IMG/VR virus record: IMGVR_UViG_3300029448_000465
Location: 1-23,259 of that record
Strand: one strand, 5' to 3'
Length of the DNA stretch: 23,259 nt
Source: a virus
Below, in pieces: positions 2,620 through 21,384 of this stretch. How positions within the stretch are numbered: the first letter of the stretch is position 1; each line of letters begins with the position of its first letter. The notes under the pieces were generated by a model. That model was not told the origin of the DNA and did not search any database. It worked only from the letters and a program-made list of their open reading frames with translations. The translations under genes were made by a program, and so were the position numbers.

Positions 2620-3162
2620 ATGAATATATTTGTACTAAATGAAAACGCAAAAGTAGCAGCTCAAGAACATTGTGACAAACATGTTGTTAAAATGATTATT
2701 GAATCTGCACAGATGTTATCCACAGCTCATCGAATACTTGACGGTAAAGAAACACGTAAGCCATCAAAATCTGGCAAACGTATCGTTAAATATTGGGAGA
2801 TGGATAATCAATATGATGAAAATCTATTATACAAAGCAGTACATATGAAACATCCTTGCACTCTTTGGACAATGGAATCATCAGAAAATTATTATTGGCA
2901 TTGGGAGTTGTTTAATGCTCTTTGTGACGAATACATTCATCGATACAAAAAAATACATAAGACAGATGAATTACTTCGAGGTAAGTTACTAACACCACCA
3001 AAAAATATCCCGCATGGACCGATGACACCCTTCCGTCAAGCAATCTTTGATGACTGTAAAGGTCCAGATCCCGTTAAAGCATATAGAAAATATTACCACG
3101 CAAAGACATTTAAAATGGTATGGACAAATCGGAAAGTTCCAGCGTGGTATTCATATAAATAG
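2620..3162 (+). CDS. conserved phage protein of unknown function
   Basis: This is a 180-residue protein whose pattern recurs in many tailed phages, mainly marine. It has an N-terminal MNIFVLNEN, then HCDKHVVKMIIESAQ near residues 17-31, KHPCTLW near 77-83, and a C-terminal FRQAIFDDCKGPDPVKAYRKYY region. The invariant-looking His, Cys, Asp and Lys residues suggest an enzyme or nucleic-acid-binding protein. I do not recognise a characterised family, and a pyrimidine-dimer glycosylase label would not be supported by visible residues. The protein is soluble. The start is supported by GAGGA upstream. The last codons Tyr-Lys-stop (TAT AAA TAG) themselves form the late promoter for the next unit, so the two transcription units are physically fused. 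Confidence 0.75.
   Translation: MNIFVLNENAKVAAQEHCDKHVVKMIIESAQMLSTAHRILDGKETRKPSKSGKRIVKYWEMDNQYDENLLYKAVHMKHPCTLWTMESSENYYWHWELFNALCDEYIHRYKKIHKTDELLRGKLLTPPKNIPHGPMTPFRQAIFDDCKGPDPVKAYRKYYHAKTFKMVWTNRKVPAWYSYK
3154..3161 (+). promoter_or_regulatory. T4-type late promoter TATAAATA
   Basis: An exact TATAAATA overlaps the stop codon of the preceding gene. T4 late promoters consist essentially of this octamer at -13 to -6, read by gp55. Transcription would start near 3167, just ahead of the glutamine aptamer at 3171. Confidence 0.75.
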
Positions 3163-3170
3163 AATTGAAT

Positions 3171-3226
3171 TACGTTCACCCGAAAGGGCGGAAGTACTCA
3201 CACAGTGTGAGGAAGGAACGCACCGT
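3171..3226 (+). promoter_or_regulatory. glutamine riboswitch (glnA / downstream-peptide motif)
   Basis: The fold is a three-way junction. Closing stem P1 pairs CGTTC (3173-3177) with GAACG (3216-3220). One arm is CCC-GAAA-GGG (3179-3188). The other arm is CTCACA-CAG-TGTGAG (3197-3211). The junction strands CGGAAGTA and GAAG, and the tail GCACCG, match the conserved core of the glnA and Downstream-peptide RNA motifs as I recall them; these bind L-glutamine and occur in cyanobacteria, their phages and marine metagenomes. The aptamer ends 17 nt before the start codon at 3243, with AGGAG in the gap, suggesting control of translation or transcript fate of the small peptide gene. Confidence 0.85.
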
Positions 3227-3242
3227 AAATAGGAGAATAACA

Positions 3243-3413
3243 ATGGCTACTCTACAATATAGAGGGTCTAAAGTTGTTGCTTCTGAAAAAGCGGTGGCAA
3301 AACCTAGCATCGCTTCTTACAGAGGTTTCACATACGACCCAAACGACCCGCACTATCATGCTAAGCATATTGCTCAGACATTGAACTATCGTGGTTCAAA
3401 ATTCGAAGCATAA
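3243..3413 (+). CDS. 56-residue riboswitch-controlled peptide with YRG repeats
   Basis: This small protein begins at an ATG 7 nt after AGGAG, directly behind the glutamine aptamer. An in-frame upstream start at 3165 would run through the aptamer and is rejected. It contains three YRG motifs: LQYRGSK (residues 4-10), SYRGFTYDP (near 27-35) and LNYRGSKFEA at the C-terminus. YRG motifs define DUF4278-type small proteins, which I recall as typical products downstream of such aptamers. Some cyanobacterial peptides under glutamine riboswitches modulate nitrogen assimilation. By analogy this peptide could act on host nitrogen metabolism, but that is inference. The late promoter suggests expression late in infection. 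Confidence 0.8.
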   Translation: MATLQYRGSKVVASEKAVAKPSIASYRGFTYDPNDPHYHAKHIAQTLNYRGSKFEA

Positions 3414-3430
3414 CTTAACACAATAATAAC

Positions 3431-3472
3431 TTTCCCTCAAGCCTAGTGTTTTATAAATAGGTTTGAGGGAAA
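3431..3472 (+). repeat. 15-bp inverted repeat masking the next RBS
   Basis: Arms 3431-3445 and 3458-3472 pair over 15 bp with a single G-U; the 12-nt loop is 3446-3457. The right arm holds the GAGGG Shine-Dalgarno (3465-3469) of the gene at 3475. The late promoter octamer lies in the loop and first bases of the right arm. Read-through RNA would fold and hide the RBS. RNA started at the internal late promoter would lack the left arm. Confidence 0.75.
3452..3459 (+). promoter_or_regulatory. T4-type late promoter TATAAATA inside hairpin loop
   Basis: An exact TATAAATA octamer. With late-promoter geometry (octamer at -13 to -6), transcription starts near 3465, giving an RNA that begins at the Shine-Dalgarno and reaches the ATG at 3475 within about 10 nt. 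Confidence 0.75.
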
Positions 3473-3474
3473 AC

Positions 3475-4803
3475 ATGGCTAAGAAAAAGAAAGACCAAGA
3501 ACTTTCTGTATCTGAAGCACAAAAGATAACAGCTTATCTTTATCATAAGAAACAGAAAGAAGATGAGTTATTACGAGATGCAGCTTACGTTCTACTGAAA
3601 GAAACAAACCCAGAGTTTGATTACGAAGTAGAACCAACAGATACAGCAGACATTAAAGGCATAGATCACGTAGCATCAGCTGGTGCAAACGCGGCAACAG
3701 TTGCGGGTGCAGCGGCAGCGGCCACTACGACAGCGGCGACTACTGCAACAACAGCTGGAGTATCAACAGTCGGAGCAGCAATTGCTCAATTACAATCATT
3801 AGGAACTGCAGGCGTTATTGCTATGTCTTCAGCAGTTTATTTCCAAGGTAGTTCAGTTTATGATAATGTAGATGTAATGATAGATGAAGTTACACCTATG
3901 ATTGAAGAATTAGTTGTTACAGGTACAATTACCCCTCCTCCAGAATCATCATTTTATGGTCAAGAAATACCTAAGACCACAAGCTTCGTCGGAGTTAAAG
4001 TTGGAGAGGCTCGTGAGAAGCCGGCTGAAGATTCCGATCAACCATCAACAGAAGAAGGTACTAATGACTCAACATCAGAGAATCAAACATCAACAAAGGA
4101 TACGGAAAAATCAAAAGGCGAAGCTAAATCAGGCAAGCCGAACGAAAAGCAAACCGTAACTAAAGATGAAAAAACTGATGAAGAAGAGTCTGAAGAAACC
4201 GAAGAATCTGAAGACTCTTCTAAAGATGAAGAAGCCGAAAAAAAGCCTAAGAAAAAAGGTGGATTCTTTGGTTTATTTGCAGATGATGAAGAAGAGGAAG
4301 AAGAATCTGATGAAGAGGAAAAGCCTAGTGACGAAGTTCAAGAAGAAACTCGAAACGAAGAAGTGGCAAAAGAAAAACCGCCAGCAGATGAACCTAAAGA
4401 AGAACCAACGCAAGAACCTAAGCCTGAACCCCAACAAGAATCTCGTGGACTGTTCAGCATGTTTGCAGCAGCAGTTGCGCCTGATGAACCAACCGAAGTT
4501 GACGAACCTAAATTGGATGAGCCTCAAGCTTTAAGTTCTTTACCTCCAGTTGAATTATCTCCAGCAGTAATCGAAGCTTCTGAAAGTGTATCTGATGCAG
4601 AGCTTGAAGAAGCTGGTATTTCAAGAGACGATTTTGAAATAGCGTTACAAGAAATGCATGAAATGCCGCTAGAAGTAGATGAAACGATTTTTAATGAACA
4701 AATAGAAGAAGAAATAGAAGAGGAAATACAAGAAGACGAAACTATTAATTGGACTGAAGTATTCGGTCCAGCCTACGAAGAAACGGACGCTACACCAATA
4801 TGA
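3475..4803 (+). CDS. late acidic low-complexity protein with Ala/Thr-rich segment
   Basis: This 442-residue protein is not recognised. The start chosen is the ATG at 3475 with GAGGG 5 nt upstream; a TTG at 3463 is in frame but would start inside the RBS. Residues 1-50 are charged and helical. Residues about 68-122 form an Ala/Thr/Gly-rich hydrophobic stretch that could be one or two membrane or amphipathic helices. Residues about 180-320 are an extended Glu/Lys/Pro/Ser low-complexity region. Two aromatic motifs interrupt it: KKGGFFGLFADDEE near 259-272 and SRGLFSMFAAA near 323-333. The remaining C-terminus stays strongly acidic. Late expression and overlap (ATGA) with a small membrane protein suggest a virion, envelope or lysis-related role, but no function is proven. 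Strongly acidic phage proteins can also be DNA mimics or scaffold-like. Confidence 0.75.
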   Translation: MAKKKKDQELSVSEAQKITAYLYHKKQKEDELLRDAAYVLLKETNPEFDYEVEPTDTADIKGIDHVASAGANAATVAGAAAAATTTAATTATTAGVSTVGAAIAQLQSLGTAGVIAMSSAVYFQGSSVYDNVDVMIDEVTPMIEELVVTGTITPPPESSFYGQEIPKTTSFVGVKVGEAREKPAEDSDQPSTEEGTNDSTSENQTSTKDTEKSKGEAKSGKPNEKQTVTKDEKTDEEESEETEESEDSSKDEEAEKKPKKKGGFFGLFADDEEEEEESDEEEKPSDEVQEETRNEEVAKEKPPADEPKEEPTQEPKPEPQQESRGLFSMFAAAVAPDEPTEVDEPKLDEPQALSSLPPVELSPAVIEASESVSDAELEEAGISRDDFEIALQEMHEMPLEVDETIFNEQIEEEIEEEIQEDETINWTEVFGPAYEETDATPI

Positions 4804-4986: not shown

Positions 4987-5577
4987 ATGAAAAAACTAAT
5001 TAGTTTTATTTTGTTATGTTCTACAGTATGTTTTGGTGATTTGATAACAACATTTGATTTTGATATCAAAGAATCAACTGTTTTACAATTTAGTAGACCC
5101 GGATGGAATAGTACTAATTCTATTTTCTATTATAACTTAGCTTACTTTACAGTAGATACCGCGGGAGATTGGAAAGCTCAAAATAATTTAATAACTTCTA
5201 ACGACTCGTTTGATTATACAAATTATCAGGTTCAAATAGAAAATAATCCTTGGTTTGCAGCTGATACTTATGTGTACCTTTATAAAGATACATTTGATGC
5301 ATCAGATCCGTCAAAAAATCTTATAGCGGAAAACGATGATGGTTTCGGTCGTGGTAATGGTGTTCAATTTGAATTATCATATAATTTAGAAACTAACACA
5401 ACTTATTGGGCAGTCATTACTACATATGAACCCGAAGAAGAAATCAGCGGTATGGTTTCTGTAATTGGCCCGCAAGGTGCAGGTATAAACTTAGTTACAA
5501 TACCTGAACCATACGCAGTGAGCTTAATTGCTATATCAGGATTAGGTTTATTAGTAGGAAGAAGATTATTTAGGTGA
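4987..5577 (+). CDS. secreted PEP-CTERM surface protein
   Basis: A 196-residue exported protein. An N-terminal signal peptide (MKKLISFILLCSTVCFG, residues 1-17) is followed by a beta-rich domain. This contains DTYVYLYKDTFD and LIAENDDGFGRGNG, with Asp/Gly-rich loops like those of pre-peptidase C-terminal/PPC-like domains of secreted proteins. The end has the three-part PEP-CTERM signal: IPEP at 172-175, a hydrophobic helix of about 15 residues (AVSLIAISGLGLLVG) and a terminal RRLFR. In bacteria this signal is processed by exosortase (EpsH/XrtA) and the proteins are linked to extracellular polysaccharide. A phage carrying one is unusual and suggests host-cell surface display during late infection. 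AAAGGA 8 nt upstream supports the start. It is followed by a barrel protein. Confidence 0.8.
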   Translation: MKKLISFILLCSTVCFGDLITTFDFDIKESTVLQFSRPGWNSTNSIFYYNLAYFTVDTAGDWKAQNNLITSNDSFDYTNYQVQIENNPWFAADTYVYLYKDTFDASDPSKNLIAENDDGFGRGNGVQFELSYNLETNTTYWAVITTYEPEEEISGMVSVIGPQGAGINLVTIPEPYAVSLIAISGLGLLVGRRLFR

Positions 5578-5583
5578 ATGTTT

Positions 5584-6756
5584 ATGAAAAGGCTTTTTTG
5601 TTTATTTGTATTATTGCTATCAGTTTCATCCTCGCATGGATTACTGAACGATTTAATAATAGTTAAAAATCATACTCGTCCAGGATATGATGATAATGTT
5701 TTTACTCGTACCTCAGGTAACGAAACGGGTTCTTTTTATGTAGAACAAATAGTAAGCATCGATGCTATATTATCTGCGAATCAAAGGCACATGTTATCTA
5801 CGATGTATAGTCCAAAATATGTTTATAGGGATTTAGATCAGAAGCAGTTACTATATCATACTTGGGTTACGAAAATGCAATACAAACCTACACCAAAAAG
5901 TACCTTTGATATATCTCATAAATGGACAACATCAGAACGAGAACCAACTGACATTGATGCTGACGTCGATATTACTTGGGCCCAAACACAAACAGATTTA
6001 CAATTTTCTCACACATTTTCTAGAAGATCTTCAACAGTAATCGGACTAAGCCGCAAAACAAAAGAATGGTCAGAAAATTTATTGGCAGTTGGCGAGATGT
6101 ATACTGACGGAGACTTTGAACAATATTCAGCTAATGTTCATCAAATATATGAATTAATTAAAGGAAGACTTTTTTGGACAACAGGCGTTGAAGCTACTCG
6201 ACATGAGTATGTAAACGATAGAGGTGGATTTCACGGCGGAGATTTATATAATAATATAATATATGTATTGGGTAAATCAACAATTTTGCAATTAGATTGT
6301 TGGTACGGACACTCAACGACTGTATTACAAGAAGACGAAACCGATGGTGGAGGTTGGGGGCCATCGTGGAAAGCATCACTTAATTCTCAGCTAGCTCAAA
6401 ATTTAATGACAGGTTTATCATTTACATACGAAACAGTAGATTCTTCTATTGCATTTTGGAACGCAAAAGATATTTATAAAGCAATGATAAATGTTAAATA
6501 CAATATAACACCGAAACTAGAAACAATGTCTGCAGTAGTTCTCTCGGAAAGTAGTTATCTTGAGGACTACGACAGAAACGGAACTGGCCTTACCAGAAAA
6601 GACTATCTCGGTGTTGTTATATGGAATACTACATACAATATAAATAGAAATCATGCAGTCGAATTAAACTTTATGGGATTCGCAATGAACCCGCATAAAG
6701 AACTTGAAGGCGTGGCTAGAAATAAATTAACTTTAGGATATAAGTTAACACTTTAA
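5584..6756 (+). CDS. outer-membrane beta-barrel protein
   Basis: A 390-residue exported protein. The ATG at 5584 is preferred over 5578 because AGGTGA ends at 5577, leaving a normal 6-nt spacing. A signal peptide (MKRLFCLFVLLLSVSSSHG) is followed by alternating polar/hydrophobic beta strands throughout, with many aromatic residues and a terminal strand NKLTLGYKLTL, as in outer-membrane barrels. The early segment TRPGYDDNVFTRTSGN resembles the start of BBP2-like porins found beside exopolysaccharide and PEP-CTERM genes in bacteria. It directly follows the PEP-CTERM gene and shares its transcript. Possible roles are superinfection exclusion, envelope remodelling or a transport pore; none is shown by the sequence. 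A phage tail fibre is unlikely given the signal peptide. Confidence 0.7.
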   Translation: MKRLFCLFVLLLSVSSSHGLLNDLIIVKNHTRPGYDDNVFTRTSGNETGSFYVEQIVSIDAILSANQRHMLSTMYSPKYVYRDLDQKQLLYHTWVTKMQYKPTPKSTFDISHKWTTSEREPTDIDADVDITWAQTQTDLQFSHTFSRRSSTVIGLSRKTKEWSENLLAVGEMYTDGDFEQYSANVHQIYELIKGRLFWTTGVEATRHEYVNDRGGFHGGDLYNNIIYVLGKSTILQLDCWYGHSTTVLQEDETDGGGWGPSWKASLNSQLAQNLMTGLSFTYETVDSSIAFWNAKDIYKAMINVKYNITPKLETMSAVVLSESSYLEDYDRNGTGLTRKDYLGVVIWNTTYNINRNHAVELNFMGFAMNPHKELEGVARNKLTLGYKLTL

Positions 6757-6760
6757 CATA

Positions 6761-6768
6761 TATAAATA
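6761..6768 (+). promoter_or_regulatory. T4-type late promoter TATAAATA, possibly leaderless
   Basis: Exact octamer five nt before the ATG at 6774. With the octamer at -13 to -6, the predicted first transcribed base is the A of the start codon, and no Shine-Dalgarno lies between. Confidence 0.7.
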
Positions 6769-6773
6769 ATTTT

Positions 6774-7031
6774 ATGATATATACATTTGCATGTGATAGT
6801 TGTGATGGAAGTTTTGAAGTAAATGTTCCTATCGCAGAAAACCAAAAACCTCTTTCTCAACCATGCCAATTGTGTGGTGTGAAAGATAAAGTCTATAGAG
6901 TATTCGATCATTCAGGATTTCAACATGATATGATTGGAACACACCAAAAAAGAGCTGGTTCTGGGTGGAATGACGTTTTAAAATCAATTAAAAAAGCATC
7001 AGGAAAAGATAATATAATTCAAACATACTAA
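6774..7031 (+). CDS. FmdB-like zinc-ribbon protein
   Basis: An 85-residue protein beginning MIYTFACDSCDGSFEV, with a CxxC at residues 7-10 and a second Cys pair CQLC at residues 32-35. The spacing and N-terminal Y-x-F-x-C are typical of the FmdB/CxxC_CXXC_SSSS zinc-ribbon family, small putative regulators often encoded by T4-like phages. The C-terminal half is basic and helical. It has a late promoter five nt upstream and no Shine-Dalgarno, so it may be translated from a leaderless mRNA. Its stop overlaps the start of the following 34-residue peptide by one base. The target is unknown. Confidence 0.75.
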   Translation: MIYTFACDSCDGSFEVNVPIAENQKPLSQPCQLCGVKDKVYRVFDHSGFQHDMIGTHQKRAGSGWNDVLKSIKKASGKDNIIQTY

Positions 7032-20107: not shown

Positions 20108-20578
20108 ATGGAAAGAATATTGAAATCCGCATACCACAAGCAAGGCTATATTGAAATGAAAGGGACGAAATTTGAGGTAAAACCTCTGTCCGTAGCACAT
20201 TGTTGGCCTTCAGTTAAAAAAGCAAAAATTCATCGTGGCGTTGAATTTTACGAACCAATTAAAAAAGATATTCAAAAAAATGGTATGCGCCATCCAATTA
20301 TGGTTGTTCATTCTACTTGGGCCCAACTCATTGAACAAAAAGAATATTGGGGCGATAATATGGAGCCATTGCCATTTTGGACTGCACATCTCCCAAAATC
20401 ACACTTAAATAATATGATTTACGTTGTATGGGGTGGATCTAATCGTTGGTATATCGCAAATGAACTTAAGTATACCCACATCGATTGCGCGATTATGCCA
20501 AGTTATTCAGTTGCATATAATTTGCAAAAAGTAATGCGAGCTCCTTATCCACAATTTTATGGCGGAGACCCAAGATAA
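20108..20578 (+). CDS. ParB-like domain protein
   Basis: A 156-residue protein; the ATG at 20108 has AGGAG upstream, so the in-frame start at 20069 is rejected. VEFYEPIKKDIQKNGMRHPI near residues 47-66 matches the ParB N-terminal pattern where a loop residue directs nucleotide binding. GGSNRWYIANELKYTHIDC near 115-133 matches the G-x-x-R-x-x-A-x-x-L-G segment with the key Arg. Between them lies an insertion with WTAHLPKSH. ParB-fold proteins bind CTP or ATP and may be nucleases or partition factors; function here is unknown. The gene precedes sugar-related genes without evident terminator, and its stop overlaps the next ATG by one base. Confidence 0.55.
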   Translation: MERILKSAYHKQGYIEMKGTKFEVKPLSVAHCWPSVKKAKIHRGVEFYEPIKKDIQKNGMRHPIMVVHSTWAQLIEQKEYWGDNMEPLPFWTAHLPKSHLNNMIYVVWGGSNRWYIANELKYTHIDCAIMPSYSVAYNLQKVMRAPYPQFYGGDPR

Positions 20579-21384
20579 TGAAACGATTAATATATCAAGT
20601 TTACGTAGGTCAAGAATCTAATTTATATAATCATTGCATACAATCAGTTTATGATTATTGTAAAAAATATAACATAGACCATTATGTCCAAAAAGATCCT
20701 AAACTTAAAATTTTACCAGATCCTAAAACAACTAATCGTAGTCAAGGTGCAATTCGTTTAGGCTATTTACCTATATATGAAAAAGAAAATGCGTTTGAAT
20801 GGTTTGAAGAATACGATCAAATTGCTATTGTTGATTCTGACATTTATATAAAATCCACCGCACCAAATATATTTAATGACTTAGATCCTACTGTTGATTT
20901 TGCTGGTGTTATTGAAAGAGAAATGCCATTGACTTCGGAGTACACACACAAAATTATACATTATTCTCGTTCGCAGTATGAACAACTTTCTAATGTAGAT
21001 TTCGCGCCAAATAAATACGGATATGAATTTTATAATATGGGATTAATGGTAATGAATAAATCTATTACTAAATATATTAACGGCACACCAAAAGAATTTA
21101 TTCAACAACCAGAGTTTAAACGATTTGTAGATGGTCTTGGTGCATGGAAATGGTCAACAGACCAAACACTTTTAAATTATTGGGTAAGAAATTCTGGTAT
21201 GAAACAACAACATTTATCTTGGAAATGGAATGCTTTATTTAAAGGTATTCGAGATGATTGGTTACCTAAAGCACATTTTATACATTTCTTTTTAAAGGAT
21301 AAACTTCCAGCACGAGGAGAAAATGTAAATCTTCTTATGCAAGAACTTGATGGTAACACGAAAATGGAGCATAAACATATATGA
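20578..21384 (+). CDS. GT-A glycosyltransferase-like protein
   Basis: A 268-residue protein. It opens MKRLIYQVYVGQ, typical of the first beta strand. The nucleotide-sugar-binding DXD motif is DSD at residues 86-88 (IAIVDSDIYI). YEFYNMGLMVMNKS near 149-162 resembles the N-x-G-V-x-x-x-N region of GT8-like transferases. STDQTLLNYW near 193-202 carries a conserved Asp-Gln, and the C-terminal HFIHFFLKDKLP resembles a second metal site. The sugar and acceptor are unknown. It is translationally joined to the next gene by an ATGA overlap, and together they suggest sugar modification of virion protein, DNA or host envelope. Confidence 0.7.
   Translation: MKRLIYQVYVGQESNLYNHCIQSVYDYCKKYNIDHYVQKDPKLKILPDPKTTNRSQGAIRLGYLPIYEKENAFEWFEEYDQIAIVDSDIYIKSTAPNIFNDLDPTVDFAGVIEREMPLTSEYTHKIIHYSRSQYEQLSNVDFAPNKYGYEFYNMGLMVMNKSITKYINGTPKEFIQQPEFKRFVDGLGAWKWSTDQTLLNYWVRNSGMKQQHLSWKWNALFKGIRDDWLPKAHFIHFFLKDKLPARGENVNLLMQELDGNTKMEHKHI

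Follow-up and report, generated by a model that had tools for sequence, protein, structure and literature searches.

The DNA analyzed here, hereafter referred to as the window, is a linear virus record of 23,259 bases that carries T4-like genes for DNA polymerase, clamp, clamp loader, an RNase H-type exonuclease, Hsp20 and a CobT/MoxR-like pair, and that contains a cassette of four genes preceded by a predicted hairpin (Table 1). Among 50,697 phage records, none exceeded ~49% identity to the window polymerase, the best match being Phage C48C1 (Kyanoviridae). The carriers of the cassette are uncultured marine phages of T4-like (Kyanoviridae-like) type and constitute a clade. An assignment as cyanophage was rejected in view of this low polymerase identity to known phages and of the lack of psbA on 15 carrier contigs, which are fragments, so that its absence is no proof. 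Elsewhere in the window, a small PQ-loop/SWEET-like membrane protein (PF04193, 18002–18265) is encoded directly 3' of the DNA polymerase gene, while a fusion of HAD hydrolase and nucleotidyl transferase (PF13419 + PF00483, 21381–22736) is preceded by a glycosyltransferase-like ORF (20578–21384); these sugar-nucleotide genes may also alter surface polysaccharide. The CobT-like gene of one carrier (L011:2330–4561) has the opposite orientation to its counterpart in every other carrier examined.

Table 1 Features of the cassette, its leader and its flanking genes, in window coordinates.
Feature	Coordinates	Strand	Remarks
Left flank gene (phrog_624)	2620..3162	+	Cassette inserted between phrog_624 and the Zn-ribbon gene
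15-bp hairpin, cassette leader (predicted)	3431..3472	+	3' arm with Shine-Dalgarno-like GAGGG at 3465–3469; loop with late promoter
T4-type late promoter motif TATAAATA	3452..3459	+	Inside hairpin loop
Acidic Glu-rich protein, first cassette gene	3475..4803	+	One hydrophobic stretch; KKKGGFFGLFxDDEEE-type motifs; 28 relatives (first HMM survey)
Small membrane protein, 61 aa	4800..4985	+	One transmembrane stretch, amphipathic C-terminus; 29 relatives
PEP-CTERM protein	4987..5577	+	Signal peptide ~residues 1–17; beta-jellyroll body 18–171; sorting tail 172–196 (nt 5500–5574)
18-stranded outer-membrane beta-barrel (predicted)	5578..6756	+	N-terminal signal peptide; ATG 5578 or 5584
Right flank gene, small Zn-ribbon (FmdB-like)	6774..7031	+	Follows left flank gene in cassette-less relatives

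A search with the barrel gene returned 33 IMG/VR contigs, the four-gene order being present on more than 30. Wherever the contig was long enough, this order was constant, with the acidic Glu-rich protein followed by a membrane protein of 57–61 aa, one or two PEP-CTERM proteins (tandem pairs in L008, L009, L010 and L011) and the 18-strand barrel. Homologues of the PEP-CTERM protein thus do occur in other viral genomes, where the initial annotation had pointed, namely on IMG/VR contigs from several metagenomes and next to the same flanking phage genes; cultured phages yielded none for the PEP protein or for two barrels. Occurrence of the cassette is all-or-none and tied to a single site, and a scan with the flank genes revealed this site to be empty in at least 52 related contigs, in which the left flank gene is followed by the Zn-ribbon gene directly or within ~0.3 kb. 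The identical synteny on independent contigs, together with these many empty sites, ruled out that the locus is chimeric host DNA. In the tree of the flank gene the carriers formed one clade of ten plus the outlier L035, which corresponds to two changes versus 10.5 for shuffled labels. The phrog_624 gene of this carrier (L035/L036) groups apart from those of the other carriers, and its exonuclease scores with the carriers; because of this exonuclease score, the flank gene beside the L035 cassette is likely to have been exchanged singly. A small extra ORF (3165–3413) between left flank and cassette belongs to the window's own branch.

Within the cassette, the first ORF was listed from a TTG at 3463, and its relatives favor the ATG at 3475; its end overlaps the gene of the small membrane protein by 4 bases. 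The motifs of the acidic protein are repeated and resemble the amphipathic C-terminus of the adjoining small membrane protein, and the acidic protein is possibly membrane-binding or condensate-forming. Comparison of the window with L005 gave dN/dS values of 0.055 for the small protein, 0.086 for the barrel, 0.235 for the acidic protein and 0.37 for the PEP protein, which indicates that purifying selection keeps all four genes and that the PEP protein changes fastest. The conserved synteny leads us to infer that the four proteins would act jointly.

The leader hairpin has a predicted dG of −23.1 kcal/mol (z −5.8), which none of 200 shuffles equaled, and eight further gene starts of the window, when tested, showed no comparable hairpin. 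The same anatomy of hairpin, loop promoter and GAGGG is present in L005, L053, L092 and L094, and 4 of the 14 pairs show compensatory changes. Over 17 leaders, the lock is strong in five and absent in four, and the other cassettes carry CTAAATA in weaker hairpins. In 13 of 17 cassettes an NTAAATA motif is found close to where the first gene begins (expected ~2–9% per stretch). Its enrichment near gene starts over the whole window is marginal (p 0.07), and Sigma-70 promoters in the cassette showed no excess over shuffles. A second TATAAATA motif is situated at 6761–6768, just 5' of the Zn-ribbon gene, and has no hairpin. The late promoter consensus of phage S-PM2 is NATAAATA (PMC2984593), and in the T4 genes e, soc, 49 and I-TevI such a hairpin anatomy stops translation on early transcripts (PMC3014915). 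The hairpin of the cassette would likewise block translation from early read-through transcripts, while late transcripts, which would be devoid of the 5' arm, would be translated. Given the anatomy of a T4-type lock, late synthesis of the cassette is probable, at least for the branch to which the window belongs; the sequences show the motif, the hairpin and its covariation, from which we infer transcription start and timing.

The initial annotation had described ORF 4987–5577 as a secreted protein with signal peptide, beta domain and a full IPEP-helix-Arg tail, all of which were confirmed by the sequence and by an AF2 model of helix-sandwich-helix type. The encoded protein of 196 aa, read from an ATG, starts with a Lys-rich, hydrophobic N-terminus (MKKLISFILLCSTVCFG), has a beta-rich middle and ends in the tail IPEPYAVSLIAISGLGLLVGRRLFR (IPEP, helix, RRLFR), whose hydrophobic helix stretch AVSLIAISGLGLLV is followed by the basic residues GRRLFR. 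The model, built from 23 phage homologues (pLDDT 72), comprises a helix (2–14), a beta sandwich (22–171) and a terminal helix (175–195); its N-terminal helix agrees with the signal peptide that a hydropathy rule detected in all seven cassette PEP proteins scanned. The fold of the body was best matched by the jellyroll of Tk-subtilisin (Z 10.6) and by PPC-type collagen-binding domains of the collagenases ColG and ColH (Z ~9–10, over 90–100 residues), with calpain C2-like domains close behind. The jellyroll predicted by the model is a common binding fold; the body gave no significant sequence match to a known binding-domain family.

Recovery of the tail by the established models TIGR02595 and PF07589, proposed as the first check on the sorting signal, succeeded in part. 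TIGR02595 aligned to residues 172–194 of the window protein with 12.9 bits, below the cut-off of 16, which marks a limit of recognition rather than a biological property, and neither PF07589 nor any other Pfam model matched it, so for the window copy itself the check failed. For its orthologues it held with TIGR02595, which placed the tail above the cut-off in 12 of the 15 phage contigs tested, with up to 26.9 bits and with matches at the cassette only. We therefore assign the phage family to the PEP-CTERM proteins and include the window copy as an orthologue. Among the other three contigs, one has an evident sub-threshold tail and two start at the barrel gene, so that their PEP gene lies off the contig; at E ≤ 1, TIGR02595 matched 18 of the 23 homologues.

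The sub-threshold score of the window copy and the silence of Pfam would also be compatible with an ordinary C-terminal membrane anchor that merely resembles PEP-CTERM, as would the degenerate tail (VPES...LLLLKQK) of one second PEP-CTERM copy (L010:8001–8558), which is perhaps a signal being lost after duplication. A plain anchor is, however, difficult to reconcile with the passing of the cut-off on most carrier contigs and with the invariance of the motif, as P-E and L are invariant in the tails of the 23 homologues (PE in 23/23, PEP in 20/23) despite diverging bodies: the L035 body matches none of the others in BLAST, and yet the L035 tail shares 79% identity with the L008 tail. Applied to six carrier contigs with 604 ORFs of 80 aa or more, a tail rule returned seven matches, all of them cassette PEP proteins with a signal peptide, while shuffled C-termini gave 8 matches in 30,200. 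In a tblastn search of 72,556 plasmids, the 29-aa consensus of the phage tails retrieved six records, all annotated as PEP-CTERM proteins; cultured phages gave two chance-level matches only.

A profile built from the phage tails alone was then run on 398 Pseudomonadota genomes, of which it matched 20, several with many copies (17 and 11). Exosortase (PF09721) was present in 20/20 of these genomes versus 4/20 non-matched genomes from the same list (Fisher p 1.5e-7, with related genomes not being fully independent). The assumption that this type of tail goes with exosortase was thereby borne out, as among the genomes tested it was confined to exosortase-bearing bacteria. Based on the rule scan, the plasmid matches and the exosortase association, we concluded that the phage tail behaves as a genuine PEP-CTERM signal; against these data a plain membrane anchor appears very improbable.

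Sorting by the PEP-CTERM/exosortase system is widespread among exopolysaccharide-producing bacteria with an outer membrane. The 15 carrier contigs, which are fragments of up to 142 kb, yielded no exosortase, and as no phage enzyme was detected the tail would be handled by that of the host, in line with the requirement for a host exosortase anticipated at the outset. The host can thus reasonably be narrowed to exosortase-bearing bacteria. The sole match in the bacterial collection was a contig of the Porticoccaceae MAG NP1052 (L055:1–12059, PCCK01000047.1), which is nearly identical to the IMG/VR contig 3300020469_000264 and represents DNA of the phage clade mis-binned in a bacterial MAG. A Porticoccaceae host was consequently rejected, since L055 is a phage contig and the MAG's own DNA has no PEP-CTERM match outside of it. 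The best Pseudomonadota tails scored 37 bits versus 69 for a phage tail, a comparison that favors the phage because its tail is itself part of the profile, and the true host may lie outside the sampled Pseudomonadota. The tail style PEPSTYAL...AIRRR suggests Verrucomicrobiota as a possible host.

The AF2 model of the barrel (pLDDT 78) has 18 strands, and its top fold match was the alginate exporter AlgE (Z 22.8, 322 residues, rmsd 4.0), nearly tied with the OprD family (Z ~21.7), at sequence identities of ~5–13%. Membership in either family was rejected, as profile comparison with hhalign gave no kinship to AlgE (E 0.17) or OprD (E 0.58) and PF13372 had no match in the Pfam search. Similarity to BBP2_2/EpsL-like barrels was weak (hhalign E 0.002–0.003 over ~92 columns versus 0.13–0.21 for reversed controls): PF10082 matched 10 of 19 barrel relatives below threshold (best E 0.0016), TIGR03014 matched none of the three barrels scanned, and no close bacterial homologue was detected in the bacterial genome-contig collection or in 46 exosortase-positive genomes. 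On one bacterial MAG contig (L057, G011:C82), an XrtC-like (VPDSG-type) exosortase adjoins an EpsL-like barrel and a PrsK-like histidine kinase; TIGR02595 found no PEP-CTERM tail in this MAG. In combining PEP-CTERM proteins with a barrel, the phage thus mirrors bacterial clusters, a putative kinship of the barrel itself being faint.

The closeness of the fold to OprD-family uptake porins, together with a jellyroll that resembles carbohydrate- and collagen-binding domains, raises the question of an auxiliary uptake function, in which the barrel would act as porin or transporter feeding the infected cell and the PEP protein as a surface partner similar to SusD-/BtuG-type lipoproteins. Late expression would come too late for feeding, and the fold match has no counterpart in the profile comparison with OprD or AlgE, so that we regard uptake as improbable.

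Our main proposal, which we consider evenly balanced between right and wrong, is that the late envelope cassette uses the sorting route of the host exosortase to change the host surface or its exopolysaccharide. The PEP-CTERM protein or proteins and the barrel would be exported by Sec, the barrel inserting in the outer membrane and the PEP tail retaining the jellyroll protein at the inner membrane up to its cleavage by the host exosortase. Once cut, the jellyroll protein would pass to the surface or into the exopolysaccharide route and, together with the barrel, would alter the host surface or exopolysaccharide late in infection. The likeliest benefit would be the release of progeny, or that progeny do not re-adsorb to infected cells and debris.

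Receptor-blocking lipoproteins and porins are known from phages, and surface-directed proteins plus an outer-membrane barrel could similarly serve superinfection exclusion or receptor masking, in the sense of the blocked adsorption considered by the initial annotation, with the surface-sorted jellyroll and the barrel blocking or replacing a receptor early in infection; the Llp-FhuA structure 8a60 is indeed among the fold neighbors of the barrel. The late promoter and hairpin, however, point to late synthesis, which mildly argues against classical early superinfection exclusion and favors egress or progeny protection, and one protein suffices for exclusion, yet four genes travel together here. 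We thus consider exclusion unlikely.

An accessory function in lysis or egress is to be weighed as well, in which the small membrane protein and the acidic protein would act at the inner membrane while the PEP protein and the barrel breach or loosen the outer membrane or the exopolysaccharide and so let progeny escape. The leader lock has the anatomy of that of T4 lysozyme (gene e), and the cassette combines a small transmembrane, a predicted inner-membrane-anchored and a predicted outer-membrane protein, as would suit such a task. Nevertheless, neither an enzyme nor a spanin signature is present in the cassette, the carrier contig L077 encodes a separate phage endolysin homologue elsewhere, and the many relatives without cassette must also lyse, which leaves the lysis function a minor candidate. 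Returning to the exosortase-dependent change of the host surface, a more specific version would be that a lytic phage takes over the exosortase/PEP-CTERM route with sorting substrates and an exopolysaccharide-exporter-like barrel under a lysozyme-style late lock, and reshapes the coat so that its progeny leave or escape recapture. We put this version forward tentatively and think it somewhat more apt to fail than to hold; if true, no earlier viral use of exosortase/PEP-CTERM sorting would be known.

While each ingredient is known, the open-licence literature searched described no phage that combines them and had nothing relevant on phage PEP-CTERM. The conserved cassette would provide natural, minimal substrates whose fate would show exosortase action. 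It also links marine T4-like phages of one clade to hosts in which an exosortase is probably present, and its late lock would predict the timing and purpose of phage remodeling of a surface covered with exopolysaccharide.

With the PEP-CTERM/exosortase system (TIGR02595, PF07589, EpsH; Haft 2006, PMC1569441) the phage proteins share the signal peptide, a variable body of low homology, the Pro-Glu-Pro motif, a hydrophobic helix of ~14 residues and the basic C-terminus, and the phage-tail profile goes with exosortase as in that system. In contrast to the bacterial proteins, they are phage-encoded, occur in one or two copies within an operon at a fixed site and have no phage exosortase found beside them, and the window copy scores below the cut-off. 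The body of the PEP protein shares its predicted fold with jellyrolls of the PPC/collagen-binding-domain type, as in Tk-subtilisin, ColG and ColH, whereas sequence kinship is not significant. Like the EpsL/BBP2_2 barrels of exosortase clusters (TIGR03014, PF10082), the phage protein is a predicted outer-membrane barrel linked to PEP-CTERM genes with weak profile similarity; unlike them, it represents a phage-specific family that has no member over the cut-off and no close bacterial homologue found. AlgE and OprD resemble it in strand number and as best structural match (Z 21–23), but identity is ~5–13% and profile similarity is absent, so that a shared architecture only is possible. Unlike the lock of T4 e, soc, 49 and I-TevI (PMC3014915), the phage hairpin would control an envelope cassette, is weak or absent in some relatives and is known from its sequence anatomy, which nevertheless has the T4 arrangement of a Shine-Dalgarno sequence in the 3' arm and a late promoter whose predicted transcripts lack the 5' arm.
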